A stretch of DNA of 37,905 nucleotides, from assembly GCA_947471985.1 (NCBI GenBank), contig CANIZL010000064.1, positions 1 through 37,905 of the forward strand, read 5' to 3'. Shown one piece after another: positions 8,932 through 31,407 of the stretch. Position 1 is the first letter of the stretch. The number at the start of each line of letters is the position of its first letter. The notes under the pieces were generated by a model. It did not search any database. It was not told where the DNA came from and saw only the letters and a list, made by a program, of their open reading frames with translations. The translations under genes were made by a program, and so were the position numbers. The stretch comes from Verrucomicrobiota bacterium. GTDB lineage: Bacteria > Verrucomicrobiota > Verrucomicrobiia > Limisphaerales > UBA9464.

Positions 8932-10719
8932 GTGCAGATCCAAAATATCTCCCGCCCCACGCCGGCCCCCGCCCTTCCGATTCGACGCATGTGGGGTTGG
9001 CTGGCCGTTCTGGCGCTCTCCGCTCCCTTCGCCACCGCCCAGCAGATTCCCATCGTCGAGCGTCAACTGCCCAATGGTTTCAAGCTGCTGCTCGTCGAAC
9101 GACGCGGCGAGCCCCGGATCTCCGGCGGCTGGGTCGCCCGGGTCGGGTCGGCCAACGAACGCCCGGGCATCACAGGCATCGCGCACCTTTTCGAACACAT
9201 GATGTTCAAGGGCACGCCGACCCTTGGCACCAAGGACGCCAAACGCGATCAGGAACTCATCGCCGAACAGGAGCGCGTCCGCGACCTGATGCGGCAGGAG
9301 GAAGTGATTCTCCGATCCCGCCTGCGCCGCGGTGAAACCGACGACATTACGGCGCCGGAAAGCAAGACCGACCGCTATCGCGAACTCGAGGCGGACTTCA
9401 AGAAGCTACTGGATGAACAGCGCTCCCTAATGGTGAAAAACGAGTTCGACCGAGTCTACACCCTCGCCGGCGCCTCCGGCATGAACGCCTTCACCACCGA
9501 GGACATGACCGGGTATTTCATCAACGTGCCCGCCAACAAACTCGAACTCTGGGCCTGGATGGAAAGCGAGCGCCTGCTGCGCCCGGTATTCCGCGAGTTC
9601 TACTCCGAACGCGACGTGGTCTTCGAAGAACGGCGCATGCGGATCGAATCCCGCCCCACGGGAAAATTCCAGGAACAGTTCACCGCCATGTTCTGGGATG
9701 CCCATCCCTATAACTGGCCGGTGATCGGCTGGCCCAGTGACATCCCGGCAATTTCCAAGGCCCAAGCGGACGAATTCTACCGGCTCTACTACCAGCCGCA
9801 GAACATCACCCTGATTCTGGTGGGTGATTTCCAGACCGCCGAGGCCGAGGCGGTGGTCACCCGTTATTTCGGGCGAATCCCAGCCGGCCAGCAGCCGCCA
9901 CCCGAGGTGACCACGCTCGAGATTCCCTCCTACGCGGAAAAGCGATTCAATGCGGAGGCTGAAACGAATCCCGAAGTGGAGATCCAGTGGCGCACCGTGG
10001 CGTTCCAGCACCGGGACGGCTACGCGCTGGAGGTTCTCCAGCAATTGCTCAATGGACGCACGGGCCGGCTCTACAAGGGCCTGGTGCGGGGCCGGGAAAT
10101 TGCCACGGAGGTCTATGCCAATCAGGATTCCCGCAAATGGGCCGGCGCCTTCGGCATCGGTGCCGAAGTGAAGGACGGTCATACCCCCGCGGAGGTGGAA
10201 ACCGCCCTTTACGCCGAATTGGAAAAACTGCGCACCGAGCCAATTCCACCAGAGGAGCTGCAAAAGGTGAAGAACCAATTCGCCGCGGGCGAATACCGGA
10301 AGCTGTCCGCCAATTTCCCGATCTTCGTTGGCATCCTGCAGAACGAAGGCCTCGGTGACTGGCACGAAATCAACGACGGCGGCCAGAAGATCCAGGCGGT
10401 CACCACCGCCGAAGTGCAGCGCGTGGTCGGGAAATATCTGACCAGGGAAAATCGCGCGGTGGCCACCTACACCCGCAAGGCCAGCGCGCCCGCGGCGGAC
10501 CAGGATCCGGATCTGGCCGGACTGGCACCCGACCAGTTGCCGGCCATCCGCCGGGTGCTCAGTGTCATCCAGGCCGAAAAAGACCTCGGCAAACTCAAAG
10601 CCAACCTGGCCGCAATGGAGGCGCAGTCAGCCAATGCCGATCCCAAACGCCAGCAATTCCAGAAAATCCTCAAGAAGAAGGTCGCCGAACGGATTGCGAC
10701 CCTGGACCAGAAAAAGTGA
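8932..10719 (+). CDS. M16 family zinc metalloprotease (catalytic subunit)
   Basis: An insulinase/pitrilysin-family peptidase, 595 aa from this start. The inverted zinc motif HLFEH is at residues 85-89 and the downstream helix EERRMRIES near residue 235 supplies the third metal-ligand Glu. An unusually long charged insertion (~residues 100-165) separates these blocks. The C-terminal half is a second M16-like domain containing the LLNGRTGRLYKGLV stretch. The first ~38 residues form a signal peptide (RR before WGWLAVLALSAPFATA, then cleavage after Ala), so it acts in the periplasm. The start at 8932 keeps the two Arg of the n-region; an ATG at 8989 would lose them. It is followed by a second M16 gene lacking the zinc motif, with touching ends, implying a two-subunit enzyme. 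Confidence 0.92.
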   Translation: MQIQNISRPTPAPALPIRRMWGWLAVLALSAPFATAQQIPIVERQLPNGFKLLLVERRGEPRISGGWVARVGSANERPGITGIAHLFEHMMFKGTPTLGTKDAKRDQELIAEQERVRDLMRQEEVILRSRLRRGETDDITAPESKTDRYRELEADFKKLLDEQRSLMVKNEFDRVYTLAGASGMNAFTTEDMTGYFINVPANKLELWAWMESERLLRPVFREFYSERDVVFEERRMRIESRPTGKFQEQFTAMFWDAHPYNWPVIGWPSDIPAISKAQADEFYRLYYQPQNITLILVGDFQTAEAEAVVTRYFGRIPAGQQPPPEVTTLEIPSYAEKRFNAEAETNPEVEIQWRTVAFQHRDGYALEVLQQLLNGRTGRLYKGLVRGREIATEVYANQDSRKWAGAFGIGAEVKDGHTPAEVETALYAELEKLRTEPIPPEELQKVKNQFAAGEYRKLSANFPIFVGILQNEGLGDWHEINDGGQKIQAVTTAEVQRVVGKYLTRENRAVATYTRKASAPAADQDPDLAGLAPDQLPAIRRVLSVIQAEKDLGKLKANLAAMEAQSANADPKRQQFQKILKKKVAERIATLDQKK

Positions 10720-10760
10720 ACTCCTCGTCCGCCACCCCAATCCCAAAAGAATTTTCGCCC

Positions 10761-12272
10761 ATGTTCCGCCTGATTCTGGTTCGCACGATCTGTCTCCTCG
10801 GAGTCGTGCCGCGCCTCTTCTCCGCCGAAATCCCCGACCGCCCGGAAAAGCTGACCTTTCCGGAATCGCGATACGAGCCACCCGTCCCCGCCGAATACCG
10901 GGTGCCGTTGCAGGCCGGCCCGATCGCTTATCTCGTCCCGGACACCGAACTGCCGCTGGTCAATGTGCAGGTCCTGGTGCGGTGTGGCAGCTATCTGGAG
11001 CCGGTGGGGAGGGCCGGCTTGGCCGATTTCACCGGTCATCTGCTCGTCCGGGGGGGCACCGCCAATCGGTCCCCCGAAGAACTGGAAGAGCGCCTTGCCT
11101 TCCTTGCCGCCGGGCTCACCTCCGGTATCGGTGATGAGCAGGGTACCGTGAACTTGAACCTGCTTTCCAAGGACCTCACCGAGGGCCTGCAATTGCTGCG
11201 CGAAGTACTGACTTCGCCGCGCTTCGAAACCAATCGCCTCAATCTCTACCGGCAACAGATCATCCAGGGCATGCAGCAGCGGAACGATGATTCCGCCGAT
11301 ATTGAGGCCCGCGAGCAGGCCCTTCTCAGCTATGGCCCGGACTTCTGGTCCAACCATTTTACCACCCTCAAATCCGTGGAATCCATCACTCCGGAGGATC
11401 TTCGCGACTTCCATCGAAAATGGTTCCACCCGACGAATTTCGTCGTGGCGGTGAACGGCGATTTTGATCGCACCAAGATGATTGCCGCGCTGGAAACCGT
11501 CTTCGGCAACTGGCCGTTTTCCGGAACGGTACCGCCGCCCATTCCCACCAACACCGTGCTGGCCAAGCCGGGGGTCTACGTGGTCAACAAGGAGGTAAAC
11601 CAAGGCCGTGTCTCCGTGCTGCTCCCCGGGGTGAAACGCAATGATCCGGATTTCATCGCCATCCAGGTCATGAACGACATCCTCGGCGGCGGCGGTTTCA
11701 CGTCCCGCATCATGAACCGCGTCCGGAGCGACGAGGGCCTGGCCTATGGCGCATCGAGCCAGTTTCCCGGCGGAGTGAATTTCGCCAAGCCTTTTGAGGC
11801 CGCGTTTCAATCCAAATCACGCACCGTGACCTACGCCAGCAGCATCATCCTCGACGAAATCAACCGCATCAGCTCCACCCCGGTATCCAACGAGGAATTG
11901 CAGACCGCGAAACGGAGTTTCATCGATACCTTCCCGGAGCATTTCAACACCAAGGGCAAGGTGGCCACCACCTTTGCGCGGGACGAATTCACGGGACGCT
12001 ACGCCCAAACGCCCGATTTCTGGCGCACCTGGCGCGGCAAGGTCGAAGCGGTCACGGCGGAAGACGTCAAGCGGGTGGCAGCCAAACACCTGCATCCCGA
12101 CGAAGCGATCATTCTGATCGTGGGCCAGCAGGATGAGATCACCAAGGGCCACCCGGATCATCCGGTGAAACTGGCGCAACTCGCGTCCGGCAAGGTCACT
12201 GAATTGCCCCTGCGCGATCCGCTGACGCTCGAGCCCCTGCCCTCGACACCGCCCGCCGCCCCGGCCAAGTAG
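10761..12272 (+). CDS. M16 family peptidase-like protein (non-catalytic partner)
   Basis: A 503-aa M16-fold protein. Where the catalytic motif should be, the sequence reads DFTGHLLVRGGT, so HxxEH is lost and it should be proteolytically inactive. It keeps the substrate-closing elements of the C-terminal domain (LGGGGFTSRI then RSDEGLAYG), as expected of the non-catalytic subunit of paired bacterial M16 enzymes. A signal peptide (MFRLILVRTICLLG, cleavage near FSA) places it in the periplasm. An upstream in-frame GTG at 10716 overlaps the stop of the catalytic gene as GTGA and may be the coupled start; I prefer 10761 because the signal peptide begins there. Together with the preceding gene it probably degrades short periplasmic peptides. 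Confidence 0.9.
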   Translation: MFRLILVRTICLLGVVPRLFSAEIPDRPEKLTFPESRYEPPVPAEYRVPLQAGPIAYLVPDTELPLVNVQVLVRCGSYLEPVGRAGLADFTGHLLVRGGTANRSPEELEERLAFLAAGLTSGIGDEQGTVNLNLLSKDLTEGLQLLREVLTSPRFETNRLNLYRQQIIQGMQQRNDDSADIEAREQALLSYGPDFWSNHFTTLKSVESITPEDLRDFHRKWFHPTNFVVAVNGDFDRTKMIAALETVFGNWPFSGTVPPPIPTNTVLAKPGVYVVNKEVNQGRVSVLLPGVKRNDPDFIAIQVMNDILGGGGFTSRIMNRVRSDEGLAYGASSQFPGGVNFAKPFEAAFQSKSRTVTYASSIILDEINRISSTPVSNEELQTAKRSFIDTFPEHFNTKGKVATTFARDEFTGRYAQTPDFWRTWRGKVEAVTAEDVKRVAAKHLHPDEAIILIVGQQDEITKGHPDHPVKLAQLASGKVTELPLRDPLTLEPLPSTPPAAPAK

Positions 12273-19116: not shown

Positions 19117-20028
19117 TCACGACCACCGCGGAGCCAACGGTTGCCGGGCGGCATCCACGAAGCGCTGCTCCAAGGGAGTCAGGACACCGCGCCGGGTCAC
19201 GATTCCCACAATCAACGGCGGGGGCGCCGGCTTCAGCGGCCGCAATTTCAGACGCGGTCCGGCGAGACACGCGAGGCAAGCGGGCACCATCGCGAGTCCC
19301 CGACCCGCCTCCACCGCCGCTATCAAACTCATCGCACTGTCATGTTCCTCCACGATCACCGGCGGACGCCGCATTCCGGAGAACAAGGTCTCCAGCCAGT
19401 CATGGTATTCGGGATAGTCGGCGCGGCTGTACGCGATCAACCGCTCACCTGCGAGTTCGGAAAGACGGATACCCGCTTCGGCGCCGGCGCCGACGCCACG
19501 ACTCGGCCCGGGTGCCGCCGCCACACAAACCGGATAACGCAGCACCTCCGCGAACAGCAGTCCCCGCAACGCCGCCGGCGATACCCGGGCCATGAGGGCC
19601 ACCTGCAGGCGGCGTTCCCGCAGGCCCGCCAGCATCTCACCCGTCGACAGATCGTGCAGCACAATCTTCACCCCGGGCGACGTTTCTTGAAACCGCCGCA
19701 GCGCCGCCGGCAGGAGCTCGATGCTGAGGGACGGCGCATAACCCACCTGCACCTCGCCGCGGTCGCCGCCGGCGGCCGCCTTCACCGATTGCACCGCCGC
19801 CTCGGCGCGTTGCAACACCGCCAGCGCCTCCGGGACAAACATCCGCCCGGCCTCCGTCAGTCGTACCGATTTGCCGCCGCGCTGAAACAATGGGACTCCC
19901 AATTCCGCCTCCAGGTCCCGGATTTGGCGGCTCAACGGCGGCTGCGAGACGTGCAACGCCGCCGCCGCCCGCGTTATGTTTTGCGCTTCGGCCACGGCCA
20001 CAAAATATCGGAGATGCCGGAGTTCCAT
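19117..20028 (-). CDS. LysR family transcriptional regulator
   Basis: A 303-aa LysR-type regulator. The N-terminal winged helix-turn-helix is textbook (MELRHLRYFVAVAEAQNITR, then LHVSQPPLSRQIRDLE and LFQRGGKSVRLTEAG), followed by a periplasmic-binding-protein-like effector domain. The start at 20028 matches the family's usual opening; the open frame extends to 20154 but that adds non-homologous residues and would cover the intergenic operator. It diverges from the pirin-WrbA pair and precedes the intradiol dioxygenase, so it most likely controls both, responding to an aromatic or quinone compound (inference). Confidence 0.92.
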   Translation of the reverse strand: MELRHLRYFVAVAEAQNITRAAAALHVSQPPLSRQIRDLEAELGVPLFQRGGKSVRLTEAGRMFVPEALAVLQRAEAAVQSVKAAAGGDRGEVQVGYAPSLSIELLPAALRRFQETSPGVKIVLHDLSTGEMLAGLRERRLQVALMARVSPAALRGLLFAEVLRYPVCVAAAPGPSRGVGAGAEAGIRLSELAGERLIAYSRADYPEYHDWLETLFSGMRRPPVIVEEHDSAMSLIAAVEAGRGLAMVPACLACLAGPRLKLRPLKPAPPPLIVGIVTRRGVLTPLEQRFVDAARQPLAPRWS

Positions 20029-20038
20029 ATCCGCAACC

Positions 20039-20053
20039 ATACCTTTTAAGTAT
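20039..20053. promoter_or_regulatory. Candidate LysR-binding box (T-N11-A)
   Basis: ATACCTTTTAAGTAT has inverted ATAC/GTAT arms and fits the T-N11-A consensus for LysR-type regulators. It lies 11 nt upstream of the LysR start, in the 81-bp gap to the divergent pirin gene, as expected for an autoregulatory and activating site. Confidence 0.5.
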
Positions 20054-20109
20054 CGCATGCCAAGCAACATGGTATTTCCCGCCCGAGCGCCCGGCCTGAT
20101 GCTGGCCCC

Positions 20110-20808
20110 ATGATTACAGTACGTAAGTCTGAAGTTCGCGGGGAGGGCGATCACGGCTGGTTACAAACCCGGCACACATTTTCCTTCGCCGATTATTATG
20201 ACTCCAACCACATGGGCTTCCGGTCGCTCCGGGTCATCAACGAGGACCACGTGGCGCCCGGAATGGGCTTCGGCACCCACCCGCACCGGGACATGGAGAT
20301 CTTCAGCTATGTCCTCGCCGGGGCCATTCAGCACAAGGACAGCCTCGGCAATGGACGTATCCTGCTGCCCGGTCAAATCCAGCTCATGAGCGCCGGCACG
20401 GGCGTCACCCACAGCGAGTTCAATCCGTCCGACACCGAACCTCTGCACTTGTTGCAGATCTGGATCCAGCCGACCACCCGTGGATTGACCCCCAGTTACA
20501 CCGAGTGGCATCCGCAGGCCGCGCACCACGAGGCCGCCAAGGTCCTCGTCATCTCATCCGATGGCCGGGAGGCGTCGGCAAAGATCCATCAGGACGCCGA
20601 CATCTGGCGCCTCCGGTTGTCGGCCGGACAATCCGTTTCCCACGAGCTGCGTCCCGGACGCGGCGTCTGGTTGCAAATGGCCTCCGGAGCCGCCCAGTTG
20701 AATGGCACGGATCTGTCCGCCGGCGACGGGGCGTCCACCGATGCCGCCGGGTTGCTCACCCTCACTGCCTCGGAACCCACCGAAGCACTGCTCTTCGATC
20801 TCCGTTAA
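20110..20808 (+). CDS. Pirin family protein (YhhW/quercetin dioxygenase-like)
   Basis: A two-cupin pirin. The N-terminal cupin carries the metal-binding residues His57, His59 (FGTHPHRDME), His101 and Glu103 (VTHSEFN). The characteristic opening FADYYDSNHMGFRSLRVINED is present. E. coli YhhW and human pirin show quercetinase activity in vitro, but physiological roles vary. The gene precedes wrbA by 21 nt and is probably in one operon with it; the divergent LysR gene is the likely regulator. Confidence 0.93.
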   Translation: MITVRKSEVRGEGDHGWLQTRHTFSFADYYDSNHMGFRSLRVINEDHVAPGMGFGTHPHRDMEIFSYVLAGAIQHKDSLGNGRILLPGQIQLMSAGTGVTHSEFNPSDTEPLHLLQIWIQPTTRGLTPSYTEWHPQAAHHEAAKVLVISSDGREASAKIHQDADIWRLRLSAGQSVSHELRPGRGVWLQMASGAAQLNGTDLSAGDGASTDAAGLLTLTASEPTEALLFDLR

Positions 20809-20829
20809 ATTCAAAACAGACCCGCCAAA

Positions 20830-21429
20830 ATGAGCAAAATTCTCGTCCTCTACTATTCCACCTACGGTCACGTCGAAACCCTCGCCGGGGCCATCGCCGA
20901 AGGCGCCCGATCGGTGGCCGGCACCGAGGTCACGGTGAAACGCGTTCCGGAAACCATGCCGCCCGAGGTGGCCCGCCAGTATGGCGCCAAACTGGACCAG
21001 GTGGCCCCGATTGCTTCCCCCAAGGAACTGGGTGACTACGACGCCATCATTTTTGGTACGCCCACCCGGTTCGGCAACATGGCCGCGCAGATGCGCAACT
21101 TCCTGGATCAAACGGGCGGCTTATGGGTTAAAGGCGCTCTGGTCGGCAAGGTGGGCAGCGTTTTCACCAGCACCGGCACGGGCGGTGGCAACGAGAGCAC
21201 CATCATCAGCTTCGTCACCACCCTGATGCATCACGGAATGGTTTACGTCGGCCTGCCCTACGCCTGCCCGGAACTGGCCGACATCACCGAAGTGAAGGGC
21301 GGTTCCCCTTGGGGCGCGGCCACGATCGCGGGCGCCGACGGTTCCCGTCAGCCCTCGGCCAAGGAACTCGCCCAGGCCCGTTTTCAAGGCCGCCATGTCG
21401 CCGGCATTGCGCTGAAACTCAAGGCCTGA
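20830..21429 (+). CDS. wrbA: NAD(P)H:quinone oxidoreductase WrbA
   Basis: A flavodoxin-like FMN protein of 199 aa that reduces quinones by two electrons, avoiding semiquinone radicals. The FMN phosphate loop is YSTYGHVE near residue 10, and the family markers [12 protein letters not shown] (from ~75) and [13 protein letters not shown] (from ~112) are intact, so the call to WrbA is specific. It is cytoplasmic and normally tetrameric. Position behind the pirin gene and a strong terminator after it suggest a pirin-wrbA operon. Confidence 0.95.
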
Positions 21430-22810: not shown

Positions 22811-23869
22811 ATGTACCTGTCCGGATTGGGAACCGCCGTCCCTCCCCTGCGCATCAGCCAGACGGAATGTTGGGACGCATTTCAGCGGTCCCCCGAGCTG
22901 GCCAAACTTGATTCGCGTTCGCAGATCCTCCTCCGCCGGGTGCTGCTGGGACAAAACGGAATCGCCACCCGCCACATCGCCGTGGCGGAACTGGACGAGG
23001 CCTTCGTTCTGACGCCTGACGCGCTGCACGGACGCTTCGCCCAGCACGCGCCCAGGCTCGCCACCGAAGCGGCCCAGCGCGCGCTCGTCGCCGCCCGGCT
23101 CACCAGCGCCGACATCGACGCGGTCCTGATCAGCACCTGCACTGGATATCTGTGTCCCGGACTCACCAGCTACGTCAGCGAAAACCTCGGGCTGCGCCCC
23201 GACGTACTGGCCTTGGATTTGGTTGGGCAAGGGTGCGGTGCGGCGCTCCCCAACGGCCGAACCGCCGAAGCCCTGCTCACCGCCGGACGCGCCCGCCACG
23301 TGCTTTGTATCTGCGTCGAAATCTGCAGTGCGGCCTTCTTCCTGGACAACGATCCCGGAGTCCTGATCAGTGCCTGTCTTTTTGGGGACGGTGCCGCCGC
23401 CGCCGTCTGGTCCGCCGCACCGGCAGAACACGCCCGTCGGGTGGAATGGATCACCGCGAGCAGCGCGCATAGCCCGGCCGATCGCGATGAACTCCGCTTC
23501 GAACACCACGGCGGACTCCTCCGCAATGTTCTCACTCGGGCCGTCCCCGCCCTCGCCGCCCGGCATGCCGCTCAGGTTCTTGACGACGTCCTCCGCGTCG
23601 CCGCGATCGAGCAGGCAGAGATAACCGGCTGGATCCTGCACGCCGGTGGACGCGAAGTCCTCTCCGCTCTGCAAAGCCAGATGAAACTCCAGGCCACCGA
23701 TCTGCGCTGGAGCGCGGGCATACTCAACGATTACGGCAATCTCAGCAGCCCCTTTGTCTACTTTGTCCTCCAGCAGGCCCTGTCCGAAACTGCACCGGGT
23801 GGCTGGTGGTGGCTATCCTCCTTCGGCGCCGGCTTTTCCTGTCACGGTGCCCTGCTCAAGGTGGATTGA
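22811..23869 (+). CDS. Type III polyketide synthase (chalcone synthase-like)
   Basis: A 352-aa homodimeric ketosynthase of the chalcone/alkylresorcinol type, which extends an acyl-CoA with malonyl-CoA without an acyl carrier protein. The catalytic triad is present: Cys142 (GQGCGAAL), His277 (LHAGGREVL) and Asn310 (NDYGNLSSPF). Other family features are ISTCTGYLCPGLTS and the C-terminal SFGAGFSCHGALL. The triad distinguishes it from FabH, and the length is typical. Bacterial homologues make alkylresorcinols, alkylpyrones, germicidins or tetrahydroxynaphthalene; chain length and cyclisation cannot be told by eye. It opens an operon with a methyltransferase and a flavoprotein. Confidence 0.94.
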   Translation: MYLSGLGTAVPPLRISQTECWDAFQRSPELAKLDSRSQILLRRVLLGQNGIATRHIAVAELDEAFVLTPDALHGRFAQHAPRLATEAAQRALVAARLTSADIDAVLISTCTGYLCPGLTSYVSENLGLRPDVLALDLVGQGCGAALPNGRTAEALLTAGRARHVLCICVEICSAAFFLDNDPGVLISACLFGDGAAAAVWSAAPAEHARRVEWITASSAHSPADRDELRFEHHGGLLRNVLTRAVPALAARHAAQVLDDVLRVAAIEQAEITGWILHAGGREVLSALQSQMKLQATDLRWSAGILNDYGNLSSPFVYFVLQQALSETAPGGWWWLSSFGAGFSCHGALLKVD

Positions 23870-23920
23870 ACTCCCCATGGCTACGAATCGCACCGTTCAA
23901 TTCCCCTCGCCCATCGAAGC

Positions 23921-24625
23921 ATGAATCGCGTTGTCGAACCCGAATGGCTCGATCAACTGCCCGCCACGGACCCGCGGGCAGTGGCTTCGCGCGCCGATTT
24001 GCGCCAGCTCAATTTTATCATGGGGCACGCCGGCATCCTGACGCGGCACTTGCGGCAGTACCTCCAAACCCACCCGACCCTGCCGCAACGACTGCAGGTC
24101 GTCGAGTTGGGCGCGGGTGACGGCAGTCTGGCGGCGGAACTGGCCCGTCGCTGGTCCGCCCGGGGAATCCTGGCCGACTGGACCTTGATCGATCAGGCGA
24201 ACTTGGTTTCGCCAGACACCCTCCGCACCCTCAAGGGCTATCGCGGAACAGTCCGGGTGATCACCGGCGACGCCTTTGCGTGGTTGGAGCAAAGGTCTCC
24301 GCCCGTCGACGTCCTCTTCACCAACCTCTTTCTCCATCATTTCACCACGGACCGCCTGCGTCGGCTGTTAAGTCAGGCCGCCACGCGAGCAAAACTCTTC
24401 CTGGCGTGCGAACCCCGACGCTCCGTCTTCGCTCTGCGTGCCGCGCAGTGCCTGGGACTCCTGGGTTGCGGCCCGGTGACCCAACACGATGCGGTGGTCA
24501 GCGTGCGCGCCGGTTTCGCCGACCAGGAACTCTCCCAAGATTGGCCGCAAATACCAGGATGGCGGCTCCACGAACGCCCCGCCGGACTCTTCAGCCACGT
24601 CTTCGCCGCTCACCGACATGACTAA
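23921..24625 (+). CDS. Class I SAM-dependent methyltransferase
   Basis: A 234-aa protein with a Rossmann-type SAM-binding core: motif I VVELGAGDGSLA (from ~residue 60), an acidic second motif WTLIDQAN, and LFTNLFLHHF near residue 130. There is no signal peptide. Sitting 51 nt after the type III polyketide synthase and overlapping the next gene by 8 nt, it probably methylates the polyketide product or its hydroxylated form on oxygen or carbon. The exact substrate is unknown. Confidence 0.87.
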   Translation: MNRVVEPEWLDQLPATDPRAVASRADLRQLNFIMGHAGILTRHLRQYLQTHPTLPQRLQVVELGAGDGSLAAELARRWSARGILADWTLIDQANLVSPDTLRTLKGYRGTVRVITGDAFAWLEQRSPPVDVLFTNLFLHHFTTDRLRRLLSQAATRAKLFLACEPRRSVFALRAAQCLGLLGCGPVTQHDAVVSVRAGFADQELSQDWPQIPGWRLHERPAGLFSHVFAAHRHD

Positions 24626-25652
24626 ACCCATTCGGATCGTCGGCGGCGGACTGTCGGGTTTGACCCTGGGGATTGGTCTGCGTCTGCGGGGAATTCCCAC
24701 CACAATATTCGAGGCGGGCGGCTATCCACGACATCGCGTCTGTGGGGAATTCATCAGCGGACGCGGCTTGGCTTCGTTGGACCGGCTCGGTTTGCTGCCG
24801 GGCATCGTCGACCAGGGAGCCCGCTCCCTGACCACCAGCTCATTCTTCTCCCCGGGCAACCCGCCGATTCGAAATCCTCTGCCGCAAACCGCGTTGGGTA
24901 TTTCCCGTTTTGCCCTCGATGACTGGCTCGGTCAGGAATTTCAGCGACTCGGCGGTGACCTGCGCACCGGAGAACGCTGGCACGAAGATTTCAGTGACGG
25001 AATCGTCCGGGCCAGCGGAAGGCGCGCCGAAGCGAAGTCCGATGGCTGGCGGTGGTTTGGCCTCAAGGTTCATGTGACCGACCTGCCACTGACCGCCGAT
25101 CTCGAAATGCACCTGCTGCCTTCGGGTTACGTCGGGTTGGTTCGTTTGGCGGACGGGCAGGTCAACGTCTGTGGCTTGTTCCGGAGTGCCACGGCCATCC
25201 CCGACCTGGCCCGGCGTTGGCGCGAGTGGTTGTTTGGTTCGCCCGGCTCCGAGCTGCAGTCCCGCCTGGCCCAAGCCCGGGTCCAGGAGGAATCCTTTTG
25301 CACCGTGGCGGGGCTGTCTCTGTCTCCACGGTTGGCGCGCGACCACCCGGAAATGTGCGTGGGCGATGCCCTGACCATGATCCCACCGCTCACCGGCAAC
25401 GGGATGTCGATGGCCTTCGAATCCGCAGAACTGGCGCTGGCACCTTTGGAAAGGTTCTGCCACGGAGATTGGTCCTGGCCCCAGGCCCAACGGGAGATTG
25501 CCGACGCCAGTGACGCCACCTTCCGCCGTCGACTCCGCTGGGCCCGCTGGGTGCAATCGGCGCAATTTTGCGCCCCCGCCCGTGCCACCCTCCTCTGGTT
25601 GGTAGCGCAATCCCAACCCGTATGGCGTGGGCTCTTCGCGCAGACCCGATGA
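24618..25652 (+). CDS. FAD-dependent oxidoreductase/hydroxylase
   Basis: A 344-aa flavoprotein starting with a perfect dinucleotide-binding motif (IRIVGGGLSGLTLGIGLR), then the ...YPRHRVCGEFISG segment typical of geranylgeranyl-reductase-like/FAD-monooxygenase proteins, and the second FAD motif CVGDALTMIPPLTGNGMSMA (from ~residue 250), which binds the ribityl chain. It starts 8 nt inside the methyltransferase gene, so coupled expression is likely. In alkylresorcinol clusters a flavoprotein hydroxylates the ring to a hydroquinone; it could instead reduce a double bond. This is the last gene of the operon. Confidence 0.88.
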   Translation: MTKPIRIVGGGLSGLTLGIGLRLRGIPTTIFEAGGYPRHRVCGEFISGRGLASLDRLGLLPGIVDQGARSLTTSSFFSPGNPPIRNPLPQTALGISRFALDDWLGQEFQRLGGDLRTGERWHEDFSDGIVRASGRRAEAKSDGWRWFGLKVHVTDLPLTADLEMHLLPSGYVGLVRLADGQVNVCGLFRSATAIPDLARRWREWLFGSPGSELQSRLAQARVQEESFCTVAGLSLSPRLARDHPEMCVGDALTMIPPLTGNGMSMAFESAELALAPLERFCHGDWSWPQAQREIADASDATFRRRLRWARWVQSAQFCAPARATLLWLVAQSQPVWRGLFAQTR

Positions 25653-25871
25653 ACCCCAACCCGGCCAGGGTCAACCGCACTTCTCCGGTGCAAATCCCCC
25701 CAATAAAACCCGCTCAATATACTGATATTAAACACGTTAAATGAACTTCACCTACCCGAAATTACTCCTTTTCCTTAGACCAACTCCAACGCGACCAAGG
25801 GGAGCATATTCCCCCCTTTTTTCTAAAAAGATCTTGCCCGTGGCGACGAGTCCTGCCTAACCTGCCGCGTC
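25653..25871. other. AT-richer spacer after the type III PKS operon
   Basis: No gene is seen. The stretch is distinctly richer in A+T than its neighbours (for example near 25700-25745). It probably holds the terminator listed separately and the promoter of the PEP-CTERM gene, but I cannot identify a convincing -35/-10 pair. Confidence 0.5.
25797..25822 (+). terminator. Intrinsic terminator-like hairpin
   Basis: The arms AAGGGGA and TCCCC(CC)TT pair around a 6-nt loop, with two extra C bulged, and run into a T-rich tail (six T at 25817-25822). It lies ~145 nt past the FAD oxidoreductase gene and ~50 nt before the PEP-CTERM gene, and would separate the two transcripts. Confidence 0.6.
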
Positions 25872-26654
25872 ATGGAATCAAACAAGGATATGAATTCGGG
25901 CTTGCGGATGGGTACAACTACCCGTTTATCGCAAGCGATTAAACTTTCCGTTTTGGCGATGGGTGCAATGGCGGTCGCGCATGCGGCCACCATCAGCATC
26001 TCGAAGTACGACATGCTGAACGGCGAAGGTGTTGCTACGGGCGGCACCCTCAACAACTATTGGGACCAGAAGTACAATGGAGTCGCGGTGCCCAATACCT
26101 CCACGGACAAAGCTCCCCTGAGCGGCGGCGTGGGTGACCTCACGGACGGAACCATTCCGACGTTGCACTGGTCCAACACGGGTGTGGAAAGCGCGGCCGG
26201 CGCGGGTCCTTATGTGGGCTGGTTTACCATCGATCCGCTCATCACTTTCCAGTTCGCCAACGGCTACCACAGCAATGTGTCGATTGATCTGTATCTGGAC
26301 GACACCGACAACACCGGTAAGGTCAATTTGCCGTCCCTCATCACGGTGACGGGCTATGACCCCATCCTGAATTTGCCAACGACTGTGAGCCTTACGCCCA
26401 CCGATACTTTGTCGGACCAATCTACCGGCCCGAAGAAGATCACGCTTACCTTCGATCCGAGCTTCATCACCCAGAAGGTTGAAGTCAATCTTACACGGGG
26501 TACTCAGAACTCTCCCAACGCTTCTTGGATCATGCTGGCCGAAGCTCAATTCCAAGGTGTTGAAGTTCCTGAAACGGGTACTTGGGCCGCCCTCGGTCTG
26601 GGCGCGGTAGCGCTCCTGCAGGTTGGCCGCCGCGCGCGCGCCTCCCGCAAGTAA
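25872..26654 (+). CDS. PEP-CTERM sorting-domain protein
   Basis: A 260-aa exported protein. The signal peptide (RLSQAIKLSVLAMGAMAVAHA) is followed by a beta-rich, Asn/Asp/Thr-rich mature region beginning ATISISKYD. The C-terminus has the PEP-CTERM architecture: VPETGTW, a hydrophobic helix ending in LLQVG, and a terminal RR/R/RK cluster. Such proteins are recognised by exosortase and handled during export of exopolysaccharide or surface material; no exosortase gene is in this window. The motif is VPET rather than the commoner VPEP. I recognise no named domain in the mature part. Confidence 0.85.
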   Translation: MESNKDMNSGLRMGTTTRLSQAIKLSVLAMGAMAVAHAATISISKYDMLNGEGVATGGTLNNYWDQKYNGVAVPNTSTDKAPLSGGVGDLTDGTIPTLHWSNTGVESAAGAGPYVGWFTIDPLITFQFANGYHSNVSIDLYLDDTDNTGKVNLPSLITVTGYDPILNLPTTVSLTPTDTLSDQSTGPKKITLTFDPSFITQKVEVNLTRGTQNSPNASWIMLAEAQFQGVEVPETGTWAALGLGAVALLQVGRRARASRK

Positions 26655-26821: not shown

Positions 26822-29800
26822 TCAAACACCCGAAGCAGCGATTGCGAGCCGGGCGTTTTCCGTCCGCTGCTCAAACCGGGCGTACAATACCGGTAAGAGG
26901 ACCAGTGTCAGGAACGTGGACGAGAGGATTCCACCAATGACCACCGTGGCCAACGGGCGCTGAACTTCCGCCCCCGCCCCCGTCGCCAGCGCCATCGGCA
27001 GAAACCCCAAACTGGCCACCGCCGCCGTCATCAACACGGGACGTAACCGGGTGATCGCCCCTTCCAGGACAGCTTCCAGCAGATTCCTCCCCTCCTCCCG
27101 GAGTTCATTAAAGTAGCTGACCAGGACAACTCCATTAAGCACAGCCACGCCACTCAGCGCGATGAATCCGACCGCCGCGGTAATGCTGAACGGCATGTCG
27201 CGCAGCCACAGCGCAAAAATCCCCCCCGTCAGCGCCAGCGGGATGCCGGTATAGACCAGGAGCGCCTGGCGCACGCTGCCGAAGGCCATGAAGATGAGCA
27301 CAAAGATGAACAGCAGGGCGGCCGGCACCACCAGAGCCAATCGGGCCCGGGCTTCCACCAAATGCTGGAACTGCCCGCCAAACTCCAGCGTGTAGCCCTC
27401 CGGCAAGGGCACCTGCCGCCGCAATTCCGCCTGAGCGGTCCGCACAAAGCCCTCCACGTCGCTGGTCTTCAAATTCACCATCAACGCCGCCCGTCGCTTG
27501 CCATCGTCGCGGCGGATGGGTTCCACGCTCTCGACCGCCTTCAATTCCGTCAGTTCCCCAAGCGTAAGCAGGCCCGTCTCCCCCACTCGCACCGGCAATG
27601 CCCGGATCTGTTCCCAATCCTCCCGCAATTCTCCGCGCAGCCGCACCACGATGTCGTGGACATGTTGATCATGCTGCATCTGTCCGACAGTGCGCCCGGC
27701 CAGGGCCGTCGCGATGGCACTGTTTACCGCGGCCGTCGGCAGATTGTGACGCACCAATGCGTCCCGCCGGACCGCCAGCGTCAGCATCGGGGAGCGCCCC
27801 TCCGTCTCCAACTCCACCTCCGCCGCGCCCGGCAGCTTTTGCAGCGTCGCGCGTACCCGATTGGCCAAAGGTTCCAGCACATCGAAATCCGGGCCGAATA
27901 GTTTCACGGATAGATCCGCCCGCACCCCCTCCAGCATTTCATTGAACCGCATTTCAATCGGTTGCGCGATGATCAGGTCCGTGTTGGTCATGTGGGTCCG
28001 AATTTCCCGGCCAATTTGCTCGGCGAGTTCCACCTTTGTCGGAGTGCGCCCGTCCACCTTTCGCCACGTGGAACGGGGTTGGTAGCTCACATAAAAGTCG
28101 GCCTCGTTCGCGGGCATCGGATCCGTGGCCACGGCCGCCGTACCAATCCGCGAAAACAATTCCGCCACCTCGGGAAACTTCGACCGCACGAGGCGCTCCG
28201 TTTGCAGCTGATCCGCCACCGACGCTTCCAGACTCTGCCCCACGGGGCGGTAAAGCATCATGGTGGTGGACCCTTCATCGAGTTTGGGCACAAACTCCGA
28301 CCCCAGCTTCGTAAAGGTGAAGACCGAAGCGGCAAAAATCGCGCCGGCACCGGCCGCCACCGCCCACCGCCACCGCAACGCCCGTTGCAGTGTGGCCGAG
28401 TAGGCGGACTTCATCAGCCGCACCAAAACATTGTCTTTTTCACTGATCTTCCCGCGCAGAAACCACGCGCACAGCACCGGCATCAGCGTCACGGAAATAA
28501 CCAACGCTCCCCCGAGGGCCAGCATCACCGTCAGCGCCATCGGCCGGAACATCTTGCCCTCGATGCCCGTCAGACTGAGCAGCGGGAGATAGACGACCGA
28601 AATGATGAGCACGCCGAAAAACATCGGGCTGCCCATCTGGCGGGCAGCACTCAAGACCGTGTGCGCCTGTTCTTCCACGGTCAGCGAACGGCCCAGGCGG
28701 TGCTGCCGATGCCCCAGCTGGCGGACGATGTTTTCGACGATTACCACCGCGCCATCAATGATGAGACCGAAATCCACGGCCCCCAGACTCATCAGATTTC
28801 CCGAAATGCCCAGCCGCGTCATGCCGATCAACGCGCACAGGAATGAGAGCGGAATCGCGCAAGCTACGATCAACGCGGCCCGCCAGTTACCGAGCAGGGC
28901 CAGGAGCACCAGAACTACGAATAGCGCTCCTTCCAGCAGGTTCTTCTTCACGGTCGTGACCGTGCGATCCACGAGTTCAGAGCGATCGTACTTCACCCGG
29001 ACTTCCATTCCGGCGGGCATCAGCGCCTGCAATTCCTTCAGCCGCTCGCCCACCCGATGGGCGACAATCCGGCTGTTTTCGCCCGCCAACATCATCGCCG
29101 TGCCCAGGACGGTTTCCTCGCCATTCTCTGTGGCCGCGCCCGTGCGCAATCCGGACCCGATAACCACCTCCGCCAGATCCCGGACCCGCAGCGGCGCCAC
29201 ACCCGCGCCAAATTTCACCGGCAAATCGGCGATCTCGGTCTCTGACTCCACCTTGCTCGCGGCCCGGACGATGAATTTGCGACCGCCCTGATTGATGATG
29301 CCGCCGCCCGCATTTTCCGTATTGGCCGCGAGAACATCCGCCAGCTCAGCGAAGGTCAGATTGGCGGCTTTCAGCTTCACCGGGTCCGGTTGCACCACCA
29401 CCTGGCGCTCCTTGCCGCCAATGGAATTCACTTCGGCGAGGCCGGGCGTGGCCCGCAGAAACGGTTTCACCACGAATTCCTGCGTCTCGTAGAGTTCCAT
29501 GAGTTGCTCGGTCGCCGTCGCGGGCCGGTTCGTCGCATCCGCCCGCCAGGCCACTGTGTAGTAGAGGATTTCACCCAGCCCGGTGGAGATGGGCGAGAGA
29601 CGGGGGGCAGCCCCGGCCGGCAGCCGATCCAGCACCCCTTGCATCCGTTCACTCACCAACTGGCGAGACCGGTAGATATCCACCCCATCGTCGAACTGGA
29701 GGGTCACTTGTGACAGGCCGAACTTGGTGATGGAGCGCATCTCCGTGACCCCCGGCAATCCGCCCAGTTCCATCTCGATGGGCCGCGTGACGCGCTGTTC

Positions 29801-29983
29801 CACTTCCTCCGGGGCCAGCGCCGGCACTTCGGTGTTCACCTGCACCTGGGGGCTGGTGATGTCTGGCACAGCGTCGATTGGCAGTTCCCGCGCCGACCAC
29901 AGGCCCACGCCGGCCAACAGGGCCACCCCCAGCACTACCAGCACCCGTTGGCGCAGGGAAAACTCAAGAATTTGGGAGATCAT
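26822..29983 (-). CDS. czcA: CzcA/CusA-type heavy-metal efflux RND pump
   Basis: A 1053-aa inner-membrane proton-driven transporter of the heavy-metal RND family. It has the N-terminal helix, large periplasmic porter loops, and the TM4 signature DFGLIIDGAVVIVEN, with Asp404, Asp410 and Glu417. That acidic pattern is the divalent-cation (Zn/Co/Cd, HME1) type rather than the Cu/Ag CusA type. The C-terminal part (ALTGGIFALWLRDMPFSITA, GFIALSGVAVLNGV) matches the family. It follows the TolC-like gene by 42 nt in the same direction. No membrane-fusion (CzcB) gene lies between or beside them. Confidence 0.95.
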   Translation of the reverse strand: MISQILEFSLRQRVLVVLGVALLAGVGLWSARELPIDAVPDITSPQVQVNTEVPALAPEEVEQRVTRPIEMELGGLPGVTEMRSITKFGLSQVTLQFDDGVDIYRSRQLVSERMQGVLDRLPAGAAPRLSPISTGLGEILYYTVAWRADATNRPATATEQLMELYETQEFVVKPFLRATPGLAEVNSIGGKERQVVVQPDPVKLKAANLTFAELADVLAANTENAGGGIINQGGRKFIVRAASKVESETEIADLPVKFGAGVAPLRVRDLAEVVIGSGLRTGAATENGEETVLGTAMMLAGENSRIVAHRVGERLKELQALMPAGMEVRVKYDRSELVDRTVTTVKKNLLEGALFVVLVLLALLGNWRAALIVACAIPLSFLCALIGMTRLGISGNLMSLGAVDFGLIIDGAVVIVENIVRQLGHRQHRLGRSLTVEEQAHTVLSAARQMGSPMFFGVLIISVVYLPLLSLTGIEGKMFRPMALTVMLALGGALVISVTLMPVLCAWFLRGKISEKDNVLVRLMKSAYSATLQRALRWRWAVAAGAGAIFAASVFTFTKLGSEFVPKLDEGSTTMMLYRPVGQSLEASVADQLQTERLVRSKFPEVAELFSRIGTAAVATDPMPANEADFYVSYQPRSTWRKVDGRTPTKVELAEQIGREIRTHMTNTDLIIAQPIEMRFNEMLEGVRADLSVKLFGPDFDVLEPLANRVRATLQKLPGAAEVELETEGRSPMLTLAVRRDALVRHNLPTAAVNSAIATALAGRTVGQMQHDQHVHDIVVRLRGELREDWEQIRALPVRVGETGLLTLGELTELKAVESVEPIRRDDGKRRAALMVNLKTSDVEGFVRTAQAELRRQVPLPEGYTLEFGGQFQHLVEARARLALVVPAALLFIFVLIFMAFGSVRQALLVYTGIPLALTGGIFALWLRDMPFSITAAVGFIALSGVAVLNGVVLVSYFNELREEGRNLLEAVLEGAITRLRPVLMTAAVASLGFLPMALATGAGAEVQRPLATVVIGGILSSTFLTLVLLPVLYARFEQRTENARLAIAASGV

Positions 29984-30025
29984 CGTAATGACGAAAAAGG
30001 GGACATCTTTACCAAGGTCAGGCGC

Positions 30026-31315
30026 TCACCGCGTGGGCGCAGCAGCCTTGTCCGTGGCGTCCAGCCAGGGGAGCCCGGTGAGTTCTTCGAGTTCGGCCGC
30101 CGCCGCCATCGCTTCGCGACGCGTATCCAGCAGGGCTTCCACCGCGTCCAGATACTGCTTCTGCAGTTCCACGTAGGTGGTCGCGGGAACCGCAGCCAGC
30201 CGATAGTGCCGATCCGCCAACTCCGCCGCCTCCGCAAATTGCCGCACCGAATCGGCCCGCCATTGGGCCATTTCGGCGCGTTTCGTTTCGTAGGCGTGGG
30301 CGGAGGAAATCACCCGGCGCTCCAGGTCCCGGCGGGTGGTATTGAGGATCGTCTCAGCCTGCACCTGACGAGCCCGGGCGGCTTCCACGGGGGCCGCGTT
30401 TCCGCGCCAGAGTGGCAGGGGAAAGGAAATACCCACGCCCACGATCTGATCGCGCCCCCCCGCATTCTCCTCGCTGAACTGCGGCCCCACTTTGAAGGCG
30501 GGCCAGCGTTCGTTGCGGGCCAGCAAGACCCGGAATCCCTGTTGTTCCAATTCCGCCGTACGCAGCCGCAGATCAAAATTGTTCGTCAGGGTCGCTGCCA
30601 GCAGGACCTCCAGCGGAAGCGCGGCCGGCAGTTCCCCTTCCGCCACTGCCACCTCGAGCGGCGCATCGGTGGGCCGTCCCAATAACTGGTTTAAAGCGAG
30701 ACGCGCGTCATTTGCCAGCAACGCCGCCTCGGTCGACCGACGGCGCAAACTGACCTCCGTGGCCTCCAGAATGCGGAGCTCCAACTGCGGCGCAATTCCC
30801 GCCGGATCCCGCTGCACCAGAACGTCGCGCAACGCCCGATAACGCCCCGCCACTTCGCGAGCGACCCGGGCCTTTTCGTCGGCCGCGGCCAGCGCGTGCG
30901 CCTGGCCGCGCACCCGCGCCGTCAGGGCCAACTGGAAACGCGACAATCCCAATTCCGCCAGCACCATGTCCCGATTCGCGATGGCTTTCCGCAGGCCGAT
31001 CCGGCCCGGCCATTCAAACGTCTGACTCACACCCACGCTCCAGGCGACGCCTTCGCCGGCAAGTTGCCCCAGCGAATCCTGCGTCCGCTTTTGCCCCACG
31101 CTACCACTCACCTCCGGCGGTGCCCATCGACCCGCGGTAATCCGCGAAGCCCGGGCCGCGGCCAACTCCGCTTCATAGAGCCGGAGTTCGGGATTGTTCT
31201 CGCGCGCCTCCCGGATCAGAGCGGCGGCGGGCACGATCGGCAGATTCGTACGGGTTTCCGCACCGGCGGACAACATCAACACCATCCAACAAACAGATTT
31301 CAGGGAAATTTTCAT
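30026..31315 (-). CDS. czcC: TolC/CzcC-type outer-membrane efflux protein
   Basis: A 429-aa outer-membrane channel component. After a signal peptide (KISLKSVCWMVLMLSAGA) it shows long amphipathic helices and two repeated OEP domains: around NNPELRLYEAELAAARAS in the first half, and TNNFDLRLRTAELEQQGFRV plus YVELQKQYLDAVEALLD in the second. The segment SVGVSQTFEWPGR, and its repeat VGVGISFPLPLWRGN, mark the beta-barrel strands. The Met at 31315 is the better start because the signal peptide follows directly. It should dock with the czcA pump through an adaptor that is missing here. Confidence 0.92.
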   Translation of the reverse strand: MKISLKSVCWMVLMLSAGAETRTNLPIVPAAALIREARENNPELRLYEAELAAARASRITAGRWAPPEVSGSVGQKRTQDSLGQLAGEGVAWSVGVSQTFEWPGRIGLRKAIANRDMVLAELGLSRFQLALTARVRGQAHALAAADEKARVAREVAGRYRALRDVLVQRDPAGIAPQLELRILEATEVSLRRRSTEAALLANDARLALNQLLGRPTDAPLEVAVAEGELPAALPLEVLLAATLTNNFDLRLRTAELEQQGFRVLLARNERWPAFKVGPQFSEENAGGRDQIVGVGISFPLPLWRGNAAPVEAARARQVQAETILNTTRRDLERRVISSAHAYETKRAEMAQWRADSVRQFAEAAELADRHYRLAAVPATTYVELQKQYLDAVEALLDTRREAMAAAAELEELTGLPWLDATDKAAAPTR

Positions 31316-31407
31316 GACCAACGATTGGGGAAATTCAAAACACGGCAGACCTAACCAGCGAAGAGGGAAAGCCCCGGAAACGCACCGTCAGGGTTTGCTC
31401 CAGGCAC

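Follow-up and report, generated by a model that had tools for sequence, protein, structure and literature searches.

A 37,905-nucleotide stretch of contig CANIZL010000064.1 (hereafter the window; GenBank assembly GCA_947471985.1), from a Verrucomicrobiota bacterium of the lineage Limisphaerales; UBA9464, carries three neighbouring genes encoding a type III polyketide synthase (PKS), a class I S-adenosylmethionine-dependent methyltransferase (MT) and an FAD-binding protein. The trio is a real unit, adjacent on one strand and conserved together in the manner of a three-gene PKS-MT-oxidoreductase operon, and its conservation across the phylum excludes chance as its source. We consider it fairly probable that the genes form one transcription unit and encode one short pathway to a methylated, ring-oxidised phenolic or quinol/quinone-type lipid. 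Trios of this kind are already known, and what is new is limited to the branch of the PKS and the exchange of the third gene.

The window derives from a draft genome of 6.38 Mb and 96% completeness (G000, contig C64). The PKS gene (22811..23869, plus strand; 352 aa) matches the N- and C-terminal domains of the chalcone/stilbene synthases above the Pfam cut-offs (PF00195, 6.2e-14; PF02797, 6.4e-13), as well as PF08392 (4.6e-13), and contains a Cys142-His277-Asn310 triad, identifying its product as a type III PKS. The PF00195 cut-off is exceeded nowhere else in the genome. A search with a structure model, built from a 4-row alignment (pLDDT 73), listed 50 fold matches, all of them type III PKSs so far as named (two chains are named only "K8"), the best of those listed being PKS11 of M. 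tuberculosis (TM 0.85). After a gap of 51 nt follows the MT gene (23921..24625, plus strand; 234 aa), whose match to PF13649 is weak but above cut-off (1.7e-6); its score against the PRK06202 model, 75.9 bits, is under the cut-off of 243. The FAD gene (24618..25652, plus strand; 344 aa) begins with an ATG at 24618 and overlaps the MT gene, including its stop codon (24623-24625), by 8 nt in total; its length is counted from this ATG, the mechanical open reading frame (ORF) starting at 24489. It matches PF01494 (FAD_binding_3; 6.8e-8, 32.6 bits with 22 needed) over 83 residues only. The gene coordinates, spacing and triad given in the initial annotation were thus recovered, and searches by domain, by Protein Data Bank sequence and by fold concur on a type III PKS, a class I MT and an FAD-binding protein. 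Its likening of the flavoprotein to geranylgeranyl reductases (GGR) was not borne out, the protein scoring 43.5 bits against TIGR02032 (cut-off 158.8) and remaining under every NCBIfam cut-off.

Relatives of the PKS were searched for in 50 genomes of the window's family and in 387 genomes drawn from the phylum. The gene was present in 15 of the former, twice as a fragment (G010 and G038), and in 68 of the latter, the window genome included, at E 4e-64 or better. Broad flanking regions were examined at 64 loci (the window, three named loci from metagenome-assembled genomes (MAGs), 12 from the family and 48 from other genomes), and genes inside 3.5 kb of the PKS on the same strand were counted as partners. 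PKS, MT and a window-type FAD protein occur together in 41 of these loci. MT and a U32-family protein stand beside the PKS in six, a UbiH-like FAD protein with a UbiE-like MT and the usual MT in four, the UbiH-like protein with one of these two in another two, and a single partner in three. Two gene orders were found: PKS>MT>FAD in the bacterial order to which the window belongs, and MT>FAD>PKS in further families of its class. Once overlapping shadow ORFs and partners of the UbiE-, UbiH- and U32-like types are set aside, no cluster of neighbours is shared by over 9 of the 64 loci, and additional pathway genes among the neighbours were rejected on this count. Within the family, a full-length FAD gene is present in 14 of the 15 genomes with the PKS and in 0 of the 35 without it (Fisher 1.6e-11); in the fifteenth, G038, the sequence ends inside the PKS, and the FAD matches in two PKS-less genomes (G004, G013) are short and N-terminal (33-58 aa only). 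The initial annotation had made the pathway link depend on the flavoprotein and MT not being conserved beside unrelated genes and on the triad being kept, and the link survives both checks: among 65 aligned PKS sequences of the clade described below, Cys142 is kept in all and His277 and Asn310 in 64, the sole exception (L076) being truncated by its contig end. Its proposal that PKS, MT and flavoprotein are coupled in one pathway, as in srsABC, is likewise supported.

Inside the window's family the genes are strongly linked; at greater distance the link loosens, since several genomes in which the PKS stands alone show a weak FAD relative or none. Among seven such genomes, an MT-FAD pair is retained at another site by two (G180, G259) and the FAD gene by G412, and in G108 a weak FAD relative accompanies an MT; in G277, G177 and G364 no convincing FAD gene was found in the genome, nor was any FAD match found in the genome of G421, which has PKS and MT.

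In a tree of 92 PKS sequences (midpoint root, some long branches elsewhere), the window PKS falls inside a 64-row clade (support 100/99) composed of Verrucomicrobiota genome sequences together with those of the three MAG loci and of a single Caballeronia plasmid. Its nearest named relatives come from MAGs titled Verrucomicrobiales and Limisphaerales. By sequence, this branch appears to be a separate, uncharacterised clade spread over Verrucomicrobiota, and it forms the new part of the system along with the U32 exchange. A verrucomicrobial type III PKS cluster has been reported by prediction only, according to the accessible portion of that paper (PMC12193912). A search of viral contigs found no relative of the window PKS. 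The Caballeronia protein is 57% identical to the window PKS, with 41% identity for the MT and only 26% for the FAD protein, so the Caballeronia trio looks like a transfer of the cassette with another flavoprotein. On the plasmid (Caballeronia sp. SBC2 pSBC2-3; L125:6001-10708), PKS, MT and FAD genes are followed by genes for an acyl carrier protein (ACP) and a ketosynthase, and a site-specific integrase gene lies upstream. The cassette was likely transferred, with the ACP and ketosynthase as a dedicated starter supply.

The third gene of the cassette is exchangeable, encoding one or another type of FAD protein in some loci and a U32-type protein in others. No window-type flavoprotein turned up in the sister-class loci of the PKS clade that were examined. 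Six of these loci carry the UbiH-like FAD protein with a UbiE-like MT and/or the usual MT, and six others, forming one clade (100/99; L110, L114-L117, L120), carry a cysteine-rich U32-family protein in the flavoprotein's place. The U32 genes beside MT and PKS lie at L110:9640-10851, L115:7046-8296, L116:4693-5934 and L144:6554-7795, and also in L117, L114 and L120, across two PKS lineages. In G194, the U32-MT pair (U32 70-73% and MT 51-60% identical) adjoins a PKS of another lineage (32-38% identical), showing that the pair is coupled to two PKS lineages. All 7 aligned rows of the U32 protein, that of G194 among them, share nine invariant cysteines, and 6 of the 7 have a tenth, with the spacings C-X9-C-X3-C-X24-C-X3-C and C-X4-C-X2-C-X2-C. 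Against PF01136 (cut-off 22.4 bits), the proteins of L116 (27.5), L110 (24.0), L120 (29.9) and L144 (25.5) score above and that of L115 (21.6) below, the match being confined, in the five proteins scanned, to roughly the first 64-83 of the profile's 233 positions; two U32 proteins scanned against NCBIfam gave no match at E 0.001. UbiU and UbiV are oxygen-independent hydroxylases of ubiquinone synthesis that belong to the U32 superfamily and hold [4Fe-4S] clusters (excerpt of PMC6747719). The sister-class replacement resembles them in being a U32-family protein with invariant cysteines, but it is one protein rather than a pair, and its cysteine spacing differs from the CX6CX16CX38C of UbiU and the CXnCX12CX3C of UbiV given in the same excerpt. 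The UbiH-like, UbiE-like and U32 partners in the sister classes all belong to ring-modifying families of quinone synthesis, which supports a pathway to a methylated, ring-oxidised lipid.

In the proposed pathway, the PKS would extend an acyl starter with malonyl units and close an aromatic ring, most likely giving a resorcinol that carries an aliphatic chain. Ring hydroxylation by the flavoprotein and methylation by the MT would follow, yielding a methylated phenolic or quinol/quinone-type lipid. The gene identities, the intact triad, the conserved coupling and the third-gene exchange were observed directly, and we infer the starter, ring type, step order, C- or O-methylation, hydroxylation and final product from srsABC, pkqABC, hidABC and the Gimesia operon. 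The fold of the FAD model is matched first by FAD monooxygenases and halogenases, and the aromatic monooxygenases/halogenases among these best hits support the proposed hydroxylase role.

Several observations weigh against this pathway. Because the GGR-like entry 3oz2 (rank 24) scores nearly as high as the monooxygenases and halogenases, the fold leaves the FAD protein undecided between monooxygenase and reductase, and the role of the planctomycete FAD protein likewise stayed open (PMC10896814). The PKS has no nearby partner in 8 of the 64 loci, one of these being truncated where its contig stops. A literature search, with full texts checked only in part, found no characterised member of the PKS clade. 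The tree and identity comparison left out HidC, SrsA, PkqA and the Gimesia PKS, the absence of the first three counting here. The window PKS is 29-31% identical to the PKSs of Paludisphaera, Deinococcus, Novosphingobium and Microvirga, which all fall outside the clade; the MT and FAD proteins of these organisms are more distant than the PKSs, and the pairwise match of the Deinococcus MT is not significant. The nearest outgroup of the clade, under the midpoint root, consists of DpgA-type sequences.

This outgroup bears on an alternative that we judge unlikely, though it is the best placed of those considered: the PKS makes a small aromatic compound, as DpgA does, or an alkylpyrone, and the MT and FAD protein tailor it into an ordinary secondary metabolite. 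DpgA-type enzymes make a small dihydroxyphenyl product. DpgA is also the best NCBIfam model for the window PKS (NF042429), and the pyrone synthases PKS11 and PKS18 are among the best Protein Data Bank matches. However, the score of 156 bits is below the DpgA cut-off of 425, and membership was rejected; no dpgB/C-like gene stands beside the window PKS, unlike in the Streptomyces dpg locus; and an MT with ring-oxidising partners suits the resorcinol-to-quinone trios better.

A bolder alternative concerns respiration. Here the cassette would make a polyketide lipoquinone for electron transport across Verrucomicrobiota, with the third gene as the hydroxylase: a flavoprotein using O2 in oxygen-respiring lineages, the window's included, and a U32 iron-sulphur enzyme working without it in oxygen-poor ones. 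The product might be the only respiratory quinone in the sister-class genomes G287, G374 and G211. We regard this attractive reading as improbable, although polyketide quinones do serve as carriers in Actinobacteria, as the available part of PMC9927152 describes. All 38 genomes bearing the window-type trio yielded COX1, against 0 of 7 U32 genomes (G194 included; kinship uncorrected), the replacement of FAD by U32 being seen in the six loci and the one with the other PKS lineage; the six loci are a single clade, and COX1 is also missing from six UbiH-like-type genomes of the PKS clade. In a set of 63 sister-class genomes, which is not a random sample and is uncorrected for kinship, COX1 or CydA was present in 31 of the 39 that have a type III PKS from one lineage or the other, versus 3 of the 24 without (Fisher 2e-7). 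This association rests mostly on the other PKS lineage, in which 24 of 24 genomes have an oxidase, against 7 of 15 for the window's clade. NADHdh (PF00146) was set aside as a marker of respiration, many sister-class matches being weak (1e-23 to 1e-68); a second reason is that we take the family to cover hydrogenase-type subunits too.

In three genomes, cydA lies less than 5 kb from the PKS, each time with cydB beside it. The arrangement is divergent in G287, where a UbiA-family gene is also present, and convergent in G325 and G188, which are of one genus. Given these orientations, cydAB is a neighbour of the cassette and not part of the same operon. The loci with cydAB within 5 kb are L110:12246-15732 (also with the UbiA-family gene), L119:2272-4584 and L123. 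G211, G287 and G374, and G263 of the other lineage, have CydA and yielded no PF02621 (MqnA/D) match and no MenD above cut-off, nor did G374 yield a UbiA-family match. On the other side, the PKS-less G101 also has CydA with no quinone route found, neither an oxidase nor a known quinone route was found in eight further sister genomes of the PKS clade or in 21 of the 24 PKS-less ones, and of the 24 sister-class genomes whose PKS is of the other lineage, 23 possess a known quinone route. The sister genomes are drafts of 91-97% completeness, and gene absence is therefore weak evidence. Among Kiritimatiellae, menaquinones are made by Pontiella strains and are lacking in Kiritimatiella glycovorans, according to the part of PMC7356697 available. 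The window genome itself has MqnA/D-family (PF02621) and COX1 genes, with no CydA found, so on present evidence the product cannot be the sole quinone there. Taken together, these data point, short of proof, to a product of quinone type that has an aerobic and an anaerobic version.

It is very improbable that inheritance within lineages alone keeps the three genes adjacent and that they share no pathway: the three lone-PKS genomes, out of seven, that show no convincing FAD gene, and G421, would fit this, but two gene orders, two PKS lineages, the third-gene exchange and the Caballeronia transfer are hard to explain by inertia.

Downstream of the trio, a terminator-like stem followed by a T run (25799..25814, plus strand) is a candidate for the end of the unit; three such sites were found in the window, versus 3.3 expected by chance. 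A scan for sigma-70-type promoters found none and was uninformative. The initial annotation had placed the operon among genes for quinone and aromatic handling. WrbA and pirin genes do lie upstream, but the flanks are not conserved: WrbA, pirin, DCC1-like and DUF2071 neighbours belong to no cluster common to at least 4 of the 64 loci, so they lend no support, and a role for them was rejected. At 19117-21429, a LysR regulator gene is divergent from the pirin/quercetinase-like gene and the WrbA quinone oxidoreductase gene. Downstream of the operon, 25872-26654 encodes a protein with a PEP-CTERM-like C-terminus, the PEP-CTERM models matching below their cut-offs, and 26822-31321 holds genes for an RND-type pump (1053 aa, identified by eye) and an outer-membrane efflux protein (PF02321). 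Two M16-family peptidase genes stand side by side at 8932-12272.

Trios built around a type III PKS tend to be classed as minor clusters of secondary metabolism; the present one is distributed across a phylum, with its own PKS clade, and the exchange between flavoprotein and U32 protein tracks the genes of oxygen respiration. If the product is a quinone, an electron carrier of non-isoprenoid nature would be added, together with a route to it that needs no oxygen, and the two versions would be a directly testable pair of systems. If it is not, the clade still offers a set of uncharacterised PKS enzymes for expression.

The initial annotation called the pathway probably new, which overstated the case, since such trios are known to make alkylresorcinols, hierridins or polyketide quinones. 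They have been published in Planctomycetota, cyanobacteria and Actinobacteria, and are annotated on plasmids of Caballeronia, Deinococcus, Microvirga (where the third gene is called an NAD-binding protein) and Paludisphaera. The SrsB methyltransferase presumably has another fold. In Planctomycetota, MT-FAD-PKS operons account for 58 of 96 type III PKS genes, pentadecyl- or heptadecyl-resorcinols were formed in C. glutamicum by three of these or related enzymes, and co-expression of the Gimesia MT and FAD proteins gave a singly, probably C-, methylated alkylresorcinol (PMC10896814). The window trio resembles this operon (Gimesia, Rhodopirellula) in uniting the three activities. The planctomycete gene order is that of the other families of the window's class and differs from the window's own, and Paludisphaera, the one planctomycete compared, shows only 29% (PKS), 28% (MT) and 25% (FAD) identity. 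In cyanobacteria, hidABC is linked to hierridin B and likewise combines an MT, an oxidoreductase and a type III PKS; the genes occur in two orders, and the published hidC>hidA>hidB equals that of the window, a likeness of arrangement, with sequences not compared (excerpt of PMC8086630). The srsABC operon of Streptomyces griseus and the pkqABC operons of Mycobacterium smegmatis and Streptomyces sp. MNU77 also join a PKS, a methyltransferase and an oxidoreductase, and are likened to the window trio by description and not by sequence; their products, in the available portion of that source, are alkyl benzoquinones, those of pkq acting as respiratory electron carriers (PMC9927152).

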